From Pachyseris speciosa (lineage: Eukaryota; Cnidaria; Anthozoa; Scleractinia; Pachyseridae), in the NCBI GenBank assembly GCA_016490735.1, contig JAEMWC010000372.1, positions 377,501 to 441,500 of the forward strand: DNA of 64,000 nt. The letters are read 5' to 3'. The notes under the pieces are model-generated. The model did no database searches. It was not told the DNA's origin and worked only from the letters and a program-made list of their open reading frames with translations. The position numbers and the translations under genes were made by a program. Numbering within the stretch: position 1 is the stretch's first letter; each line of letters starts with the position of its first letter. This document shows, in pieces, positions 6,682 to 8,470 of this stretch.

Positions 6682-7516
6682 ATGGCTAATTATAATTTTA
6701 ATCTATTATCTCTAAATGCTCGAGGGATTCGTGACGCTTTCAAAAGAAAATCAATTTTCTCGTGGGCTAAACAGCAAAAAGCCGACATCATATTTTTACA
6801 AGAAACCTATAGCACCCCCGATATCGAAGATAAATGGAAGTTTCAGTGGCAAGGCAAAATGCTGTTCGCGCACGGCACAAATCACAGCAGAGGCGTGCCC
6901 ATTCTATTTAATAGCGACCTTCAATTCCAAATCAAAAATGTGCTTAGCGACAACAATGGCAGGTACATTTTAGTTGAAGCAACGGTTCAAGACTCTCCTT
7001 TCCTTTTAGTAAATCTATATGCACTCACGAATGGCCGTGAACAATGTGGCTTCTTCGAAAACATTACATTAAAATTAGAAGAGTTCAACGTAGACCCAGA
7101 TTGCCAAATTATTATCGGTGGCGATTTCAACACCCACCTTGATCCTACGCTAGATAACCTTGGGGGAAGGATAGAGACGAAACCTTCTGTAAGAAAGATT
7201 GAAGAATTAATGATAACTTGTGATCTTATTGATATTTGGCGAATACAAAACCCGATAAAAAAGAATTTTACTTGGGCTCAGAAAAGACCGTTTATAAGAC
7301 GCCGGCTAGACTTTTGGCTTGTAAGTAGGGCTCAATCTTTACTTTGGTAGATTTAAGGGGTAATGCCCGCTACCATGTGGCCTTAGTGCCTTTAGAGTGG
7401 CTTCAGCTTACCAAATCACATTAATTTGTGAGGTATATCGTTGTCACTCCAGCCACATCCCACAAGCTTTACGTTTTCACTGCTTGTTTTATGGATATGT
7501 GGGTACTTGAGCCTGA

Positions 7517-7581
7517 GCATTAGCTATGCCATGCTGATGAGGCCTAACAAGGCCGAAACAGCTGTCCATGGCTGCTAATGC
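7517..7581 (+). ncRNA. Type I hammerhead ribozyme, copy 1
   Basis: The conserved core is CTGATGA (7534-7540), then a GGCC/GGCC stem II with TAACAA loop, then GAAA. Stem III is the self-complementary ACAGCTGT. The predicted cleavage site is after GTC, between 7566 and 7567. Stem I is GCCATG/CATGGC, then an internal loop (TAT opposite T), then GCATTAGC/GCTAATGC, all perfectly paired. A palindromic stem III without a real loop is typical of hammerheads that act as dimers or multimers. Confidence 0.93.
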
Positions 7582-7766
7582 TCAATCTTTACTTTGGTAG
7601 TTTTAAGGGGTAATGCCCGCTACCATGTGGCCTTAGTGCCTTTAGAGTGGCTTCAGCTTACCAAATCACATTAATTTGTGAGGTATATCGTTGTCACTCC
7701 AGCCACATCCCACAAGCTTTACGTTTTCACTGCTTGTTTTATGGATATGTGGGTACTTGAGCCTGA

Positions 7767-7831
7767 GCATTAGCTATGCCATGCTGATGAGGCCTAACAA
7801 GGCCGAAACAGCTGTCCATGGCTGCTAATGC
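7767..7831 (+). ncRNA. Type I hammerhead ribozyme, copy 2
   Basis: Same sequence and pairing as the copy 250 bp upstream, with CTGATGA, GGCC/GGCC stem II and GAAA intact. Predicted cleavage lies between 7816 and 7817. Confidence 0.93.
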
Positions 7832-8016
7832 TCAATCTTTACTTTGGTAGTTTTAAGGGGTAATGCCCGCTACCATGTGGCCTTAGTGCCTTTAGAGTGG
7901 CTTCAGCTTACCAAATCACATTAATTTGTGAGGTATATCGTTGTCACTCCAGCCACATCCCACAAGCTTTACGTTTTCACTGCTTGTTTTATGGATATGT
8001 GGGTACTTGAGCCTGA

Positions 8017-8081
8017 GCATTAGCTATGCCATGCTGATGAGGCCTAACAAGGCCGAAACAGCTGTCCATGGCTGCTAATGC
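8017..8081 (+). ncRNA. Type I hammerhead ribozyme, copy 3
   Basis: Core and all three stems match the other copies. Predicted cleavage is between 8066 and 8067. Just 3' of it the sequence reads TAATGCTTGGGCTC, where the inner units lack the TTGGG part. That longer form is also seen in the separate copy near 34.97 kb, so it is probably the ancestral unit. Confidence 0.92.
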
Positions 8082-8470
8082 TTGGGCTCAATCTTTACTT
8101 TGGTAGATTTAAGGGGTAATGCCCGCTACCATGTGGCCTTAGTGCCTTTAGAGTGGCTTCAGCTAACCAAATCACATTAATTTGTGAGGTATATCGTTGT
8201 CACTCCATCCACATCCCACAAGCTTTACGTTTTCACTGCTTATTTAAAACGGAGATTGTTCCTGCTATAAAGTCGGGTCATTCTGCCATCACTTTATCGC
8301 TTAACAGCCTTGACAAACAAATGCATGGTCCGTCCTTCTGGAAGTTCAACTCAAGTTTGCTAGAAGATACTTCTTATGTTGAGCTTATAACCTCAAAGTA
8401 TCCTGCAATGGCTTGATGAATTCAAGGAAGTAAGTGACAAACGCGTTCTGTGGGACTTAATTAAATATAG

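Follow-up and report, generated by a model that had tools for sequence, protein, structure and literature searches.

The stretch of Pachyseris speciosa DNA analysed here (the window) is 64,000 nt long, and the coordinates of its features are collected in Table 1. Near its beginning, an L1-like LINE, whose ORF1 carries a Transposase_22 domain, is interrupted within its endonuclease domain (PF03372) by a tandem array lying in the LINE sense orientation, at the place that an earlier note made from the sequence had given. Tandem Repeats Finder reports a period of 250, 3.6 copies and 98% matches at 7330-8245, in agreement with the near-identical repeat of about 3.7 units of 250 bp described in that note. 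The LINE reading frame extends about 20 bases into the array, inside which no ORF of 150 aa or more is present. Further along the window lie a second, single-unit copy of the same element, which the earlier note does not mention, and a head-to-head pair of Penelope-like 3' halves. Broken ORFs at 13850-16263 and 27953-32369 resemble pieces of Pao/BEL-type retroelements by eye, a 366-bp unit is repeated twice at 32527-33257 (96% alike), and a tRNA gene is found at 36493-36574 (Rfam, 64.5 bits; anticodon UGA by eye).

Table 1. Coordinates of the retrozyme copies, predicted ribozymes, host LINE and Penelope-like fragments in the window
Feature	Positions	Strand	Remarks
LINE ORF2 endonuclease, upstream part	6682..7330	+	PF03372, paralogs
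Retrozyme insertion, one T2 arm	7328..8241	+	5' end at unit position 18-20, 3' end at T2
Hammerhead 1 with extended stem I (predicted)	7517..7581	+	Rfam 7528-7572, 33.9 bits; cleavage expected after 7566
Complete 250-nt unit, first, between cleavage sites	7567..7816	+	
Hammerhead 2 (predicted)	7767..7831	+	Rfam 7778-7822, 33.9 bits; cleavage expected after 7816
Complete 250-nt unit, second, between cleavage sites	7817..8066	+	
Hammerhead 3 (predicted)	8017..8081	+	Rfam 8028-8072, 33.9 bits; cleavage expected after 8066
T2 terminus (..CACTGCTT)	8232..8241	+	One of two recurrent 3' ends
LINE endonuclease, downstream part	8241..8459	+	About 15 bp missing at joint
Second retrozyme copy, single unit	34908..35126	+	Ends at T2
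Penelope-like 3' half, GIY-YIG domain, left arm of head-to-head pair	45612..46836	-	
Penelope-like 3' half, GIY-YIG domain, right arm of pair	46859..47871	+	

The hammerhead array and its host LINE

The element belongs to the metazoan non-LTR retrozymes, which are already known; the earlier note had called it a retrozyme from its type I hammerheads and tandem units of ~250 bp, to which dispersed copies can be added. Metazoan retrozymes are characterized by units of ~170-400 bp, a GC content below 50% and target site duplications (TSDs) that, when present, exceed 4 bp; the units found here measure 250 bp (window), 256 and 255 bp, with a GC content of 0.452. The Rfam model Hammerhead_1 (RF00163) matches the array three times, once at each full junction (33.9 bits each, E 4.4e-6), in line with the complete type I hammerheads that had been described there. 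These scores sit 0.1 bit below the gathering score of 34, so a default Rfam scan shows no hammerhead in the array; the covariance-model check returned the expected matches and fell short only in this narrow sense. The structural elements claimed for the motif can all be read from the array: stem I has two helical parts of 8 and 6 bp separated by an internal loop, GGCC/GGCC forms stem II, and two pairs with an AGCU cap make up stem III (palindrome ACAGCUGU). Cuts after 7566, 7816 and 8066 would be expected to free two identical 250-nt units, and the junction predicted earlier, joining 7816 to 7567, correctly delimits the first of them.

A hammerhead core pattern was matched six times in the window, against a shuffle mean of 0.24 and a largest shuffle count of 2; three matches fall in the array, one in the second copy and two elsewhere, the last being chance-like. 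A stricter descriptor, which misses the second copy with its mismatched stem I, found only the three array motifs (Markov control mean 0.017). Folding energy offers no evidence for a ribozyme, because in the minimum-energy structure of the 65-nt motif (z -4.9) some of the core is paired with stem III, so that this structure is not the catalytic one, and because the antisense strand is comparably stable (z -4.2); the case for the putative ribozyme rests on the Rfam match and the sequence. When folded as a circle, the unit reaches -85.7 kcal/mol, compared with -62.5 +- 9.1 for 200 Markov resamples, one of which lies at -87.2. Viral and bacterial relatives were also sought and the candidates rejected: two unit patterns matched nothing in viral_contigs, a degenerate hammerhead pattern matched six contigs with a similarity to the retrozyme of at most 39 nt among the matches listed, and a unit 16-mer matched 108 bacterial stretches, the longest similarity being 37 nt among the matches listed.

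Over the first 160 bases, unit 1 of the window array shows one difference from units 2 and 3, which are identical to one another, while unit 1 and the last partial unit show three differences, the third of which, right at the terminus, probably belongs to the flank. Six bases present in the last junction are missing from both inner ones. This absence, together with a substitution common to units 2 and 3, is most simply explained by a six-base deletion and a later unit duplication, both after insertion. The copy at 34908-35126 shows 89-92% identity and has its own hammerhead match (31.1 bits), but its stem I is mismatched, it folds no better than shuffles (z -1.0), and its single ribozyme cannot free a unit. 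By eye, the sequence upstream of the ribozyme in this copy is short of about 21 nt, which recalls the 20-nt indel described between Acropora millepora variants (PMC7229834). The comparison of ribozyme and body divergence between the window array and this copy gave p 0.07. A MITE-like inverted repeat, at about 34676-34870 by eye, adjoins the copy.

The upstream LINE fragment has at least 47 matches in the genome (40 of 240 candidates scored), and the eight of these 47 that were compared across the insertion site are all empty there. They read AAGTAGGG (one AAGTTGGG, one AAGTAGG), followed by 12-16 nt that are mostly AAACTCAGGACGACG, and then TATTTAAAACGG or close variants, and the filled site in the window reads AAGTAGGG-CTCAATC...CACTGCTT-ATTTAAAACGG. 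By this comparison the insert spans 7331-8240/8241, with GGG at 7328-7330, the 5' end of the array, and T at 8241 common to element and target; the LINE has therefore lost about 15 bp, the left joint has GGG microhomology, and no target duplication is seen against the eight empty paralogs. An earlier estimate of a 24-bp deletion, made from protein gaps, is superseded by these nucleotide comparisons. The same LINE contains, at 8460-8724, a further short insertion; its end is A-rich, and it lies between the copies of an 11-bp duplication (ATTAAATATAG).

Dispersed copies and their two-armed architecture

In the 984-Mb assembly at least 105 stretches match the retrozyme unit (39 of 775 candidates scored), in a scan that is biased to well-matching arrays and whose list lacks the 34908 copy. 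The genome-wide count that had been suggested thus describes a dispersed element, of which 37 further regions were analysed; these and the two window copies make up 39 insertions, with a segmental duplicate at one locus (L130) counted once. The 300-nt flanks of the 37 regions are unrelated, save for one segmental duplication. At L130 the insertion lies within a tandem segmental duplication whose two copies differ by 512 bp, or two units, indicating that unit number shifts after insertion. A strict core pattern has 195 matches across 39 locus sequences, 33 of which have two or more; it is absent from L129, L133, L134 and L137, and it undercounts, since L129 and L134 have the variable base of CUGANGA changed (position 228).

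Two opposed arms with their 5' ends inward are found in 27 of the 39 insertions, and the arms are between about 0.2 and 17.8 units long. When positions are counted from the cleavage site along a 256-nt unit, the outer ends are clustered (Rayleigh p 7e-16) and the inner joints are scattered (p 0.54). The outer ends fall at two sites, T1 and T2, whose ranges (104-136 and 158-183) were chosen after inspection of the data. In every one of the 25 scored pairs one arm ends at T1 and the other at T2, the same type never occurring twice, with the T1 arm on the left in 15 pairs and on the right in 10. When family units and exact matching are used, the median for T1 is 129 (IQR 128-130, range 106-134; 24 insertions) and that for T2 is 173 (IQR 170-175, range 155-175; 24 insertions), L128 being omitted. 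This mapping halts at the first mismatch, and the outlying ends under it are that of L150 at 155 and the T1 ends of L127, L135 and L136 at 106-117. The 25 pairs and 24 inner joints were typed by hand from the table of ends; the pairs omit L137 (two arms, both with ends other than T1 or T2), L138 (two arms, one end in an N gap), the L130 duplicate and the 12 one-armed copies. Five of these 12 end at T1 (L133, L140, L141, L144, L148) and four at T2 (L152, L159 and both window copies), while L132 has an ambiguous end, L158 matches neither site and L154 runs into N.

TSDs of at least 8 bp flank 24 of the 25 scored pairs, with lengths of 9-17 bp and a median of 14. An insertion's own flanks share 10 bp or more in 23 of 25 cases, compared with none of 600 mismatched flank pairs, among which 18 share at least 8 bp, nine share 9 and none share more; the 9-bp repeat of L149 lies inside this control range. 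L128 has no TSD, and its arms come from two subfamilies that are 3.9% apart. Among the one-armed copies, four of ten testable have a TSD, which is 11-16 bp long and in one case displaced by 20 nt. The TSDs are 71% A+T as against 60% in the flanks (21 loci). Target and template overlap by at least 1 nt at 17 of 24 T2 ends and 14 of 24 T1 ends, compared with a rough expectation of 25%, an excess inflated by the choice of the longest repeat. With family units these overlaps are mostly 1-4 nt; a first table overstated the T2 overlap (mean 3.5 nt), its reference unit having held the window's terminal bases. Inner-joint overlaps of 2 nt or more were counted in 15 of 24 joints, without formal control.

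Between arms at the same locus the mean difference is 0.8% (19 pairs), and between arms at different loci it is 2.7% (971 pairs, subfamilies mixed). In six of the 19 loci no other arm is as close as the sister arm (L129, L134, L136, L138, L139, L157); in a further six the sister arm is identical but tied with 16 others, and in seven it is not the nearest (L128, L143, L147, L149, L150, L153, L156). Variants that are private among the loci compared are fixed across both arms at four loci: in all units of L129 (9/9 and 4/4), at two positions throughout L134, at one throughout L157 and at one in every unit of L136 (position 217). L136 has seven variants in all units, most of them common to one L128 arm. 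The fixation of private variants across both arms argues for a short, single-unit template, which would have been copied repeatedly from two ends and was probably circular. L123, with up to 21 units and zero variable positions, should be recent on account of this uniformity; units vary within L139 (60 positions), L143 (12) and L131 (10).

Proposed route of integration and its alternatives

We consider it likely that the window array is a non-autonomous metazoan retrozyme insertion, made when an RNA circle was copied by a Penelope-like enzyme from both cut ends. A genomic array would be transcribed, probably by read-through, and the type I hammerheads, to judge from their intact cores, would cleave the RNA to 250-256-nt units; published work on elements of coral, mussel and axolotl has demonstrated self-cleavage, and in the literature a host RNA ligase circularises the units. 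The reverse transcriptase (RT) and GIY-YIG endonuclease of a Penelope-like element (PLE), suggested by the matching signature, would then cut the target with a stagger, and each strand would offer its 3' end as a primer on the RNA: copying would begin near T1 (~129) from one strand and near T2 (~173) from the other. Such two-site, two-strand priming is proposed because of the pattern of ends in the insertions. Each cDNA may circle the template several times, giving tandem units, and the cDNA ends would join head-to-head at scattered positions and leave TSDs of 9-17 bp, as read from the insertions. The window copy would represent a one-armed outcome, with a T2 arm only, its 5' end joined to the LINE via GGG and a target deletion of ~15 bp. 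The wider proposition, that animal retrozymes move by Penelope-type double-ended target-primed reverse transcription of circular RNA from fixed sites ~44 nt apart, is held with less assurance, the evidence tilting in its favour. If it is true, tandem hammerhead arrays form in one integration step and the circle is a transposition intermediate. It may be speculated that each insertion pairs a T1 with a T2 end because a dimeric protein contacts a single RNA at two points a fixed distance apart.

PLE machinery is proposed because the two start sites, the priming from both strands and the head-to-head arms match the published PLE signature. Frangieh 2024 (PMC11167929) reports, in the sections drawn on here, that a Penelope-like protein, once purified, cleaves the two strands of the target and extends each of them, that reverse transcription starts internally at two neighbouring sites, the distance between them corresponding to the genomic 'tail', and that the start lies in an AC-rich stem-loop. 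In the retrozyme, the A+C-richest 26 nt of the unit (a length chosen by the analyst) begin at position 129, and the T1-T2 stretch is predicted to join a hairpin. Penelope inserts are described in part of Arkhipova 2013 (PMC3846280) as head-to-head inverted pLTRs with a tail on one only and TSDs of 8-10 bp, along with one TSD-less insertion in a non-LTR retrotransposon that was joined by microhomology, which the window copy resembles. As far as these sources go, the features that the retrozyme insertions share with the PLEs Poseidon of Anolis (PMC11167929) and Penelope of Adineta vaga (PMC3846280) are head-to-head arms with an extension on one arm only, two neighbouring internal starts at a stem-loop rich in A and C, cleavage and extension of the two target strands, TSDs that are short, one insertion joined by microhomology with no TSD, and a hammerhead in the element. 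The retrozyme unit has no RT/GIY-YIG ORF and is therefore not itself a PLE; it further differs from PLEs in its full hammerhead and in arms that are multimers of a ~256-nt unit. Its TSDs (9-17 bp) are longer than the 8-10 bp given for Penelope, and T1 and T2 lie ~44 nt apart, compared with the 30-40 nt of the tail in those accounts. In the Anolis data described in PMC11167929 both strands use the same sites indifferently, whereas the retrozyme insertions use one each, and the Anolis account gives no template homology to the target, whereas the overlaps at retrozyme insertions are slightly above expectation.

LINE and SINE retrotransposition is marked by a poly-A tail and an A-rich cut site, and LINE twin priming is expected in a minority of insertions, with one fixed 3' end bearing a tail and a variable internal start. 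Mobilisation of the retrozyme by LINE machinery, through ordinary target-primed reverse transcription in which a twin-priming 5' inversion yields the head-to-head arms, would be compatible with the 9-17 bp TSDs and the joint overlaps, and LINEs are at hand, given the 47 or more matches to one fragment. Both outer ends, however, are recurrent and differ in kind in 25 of 25 pairs, the two-armed structure is too common at 27 of 39 insertions, no poly-A tail occurs at the junctions listed, and a TT/AAAA-like cut is absent from 21 target sites (L128, L146, L149 and L150 omitted), so that this route appears decidedly improbable, even though a part of Cervera & de la Pena 2020 (PMC7229834) leaves LINEs open as mobilisers. 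Somewhat more probable, but still unlikely, is a template in the form of a linear multi-unit transcript, the tandem units mirroring those of a source array. Arrays of identical units such as L123 could give identical multi-unit transcripts, homogenisation is possible, units vary within L139, L143 and L131, and unit number changes after insertion, as in the L130 duplicates 512 bp apart and in the window array, which seems expanded; the private variants fixed at L129, L134, L136 and L157 would nevertheless call for a one-unit template or complete homogenisation, and a multi-unit RNA should be cut by its intact hammerheads.

Amplification and inversion of a satellite purely as DNA, or an artefact of assembly, would dispense with an RNA step altogether, and repeats in tandem or inverted arrangement readily give rise to both, as the changed unit number at L130 illustrates. 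With TSDs at 24 of 25 two-armed copies, unrelated flanks, a site that is empty in eight of eight LINE paralogs, and recurrent ends with scattered inner joints that amplification would not lead one to expect, this reading is scarcely credible. Hardly better placed is the nested host-guest unit envisaged by the earlier note, in which the LINE promoter drives production of circles, and which we regard as very improbable. The array does lie in sense orientation to the LINE with three hammerhead cores kept, and read-through transcription is the published proposal for retrozymes. The host copy, however, is defective in three ways: it codes SGH where D precedes H in seven of eight paralogs and nine of ten relatives, it carries the 8460-8724 insertion, and its RT region is split across two frames. 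Expression driven by the LINE is thus unsupported, and so is a special nesting arrangement, 37 other regions carrying the retrozyme at unrelated flanks; since its flanks are not common to other copies, the landing in the LINE is one event among many.

Relation to known elements

Copying of a retrozyme circle by a Penelope-like enzyme accords with an existing proposal: Cervera & de la Pena 2020 (PMC7229834), in the part available, suggested that Penelope elements mobilise retrozymes, pointing to hammerheads common to both, to tandem copies and to their joint occurrence, and later papers, so far as their accessible text goes, restate it. The coral-type retrozymes of that study (PMC7229834) likewise have ~250-bp tandem units, type I hammerheads, a 2-bp stem III with a tetraloop, a GC content of 45% and dispersed copies, the match being one of description. 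Its main text mentions TSDs only as present and above 4 bp, and contains no mention of inverted or head-to-head copies, orientation or a tail; the present genome adds head-to-head arms, start sites that recur at two positions, and the empty site of one insertion. No report of a two-site, head-to-head anatomy of retrozyme insertions was found among openly accessible titles and abstract openings, and what is new here is this insertion anatomy across 37 further regions. Plant LTR retrozymes (PMC4918200; as summarised in parts of PMC7229834 and PMC7761336) are also non-autonomous, hammerhead-bearing and associated with circular RNA, but differ in their type III hammerheads, LTRs, PBS/PPT, ~700-nt units and 4-bp TSD (PMC7229834, PMC7761336). 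The hammerhead repeats of newt and axolotl also form tandem type I units, and differ, according to the same part of PMC7229834, in their length of 330-350 nt, a weaker stem III or II and dimer-dependent cleavage.

For the question of how animal retrozymes reintegrate, the scars described here offer a testable answer, with two start positions and a small RNA circle as template. If it is true, ribozyme-made circular RNAs would be tied to retroelements reported to prime internally and from both target strands, and the ~256-nt unit would provide a compact natural RNA for the study of a PLE enzyme. The Penelope-like pair in the window itself is arranged head-to-head about a palindromic joint with no TSD seen by eye, and it lacks the two-site pattern, as both of its arms end at the same position. 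At about 47780-47820, in the Penelope-like 3' region, lies a minimal hammerhead-like motif, which is absent from the Rfam scan output and was recognised by eye.
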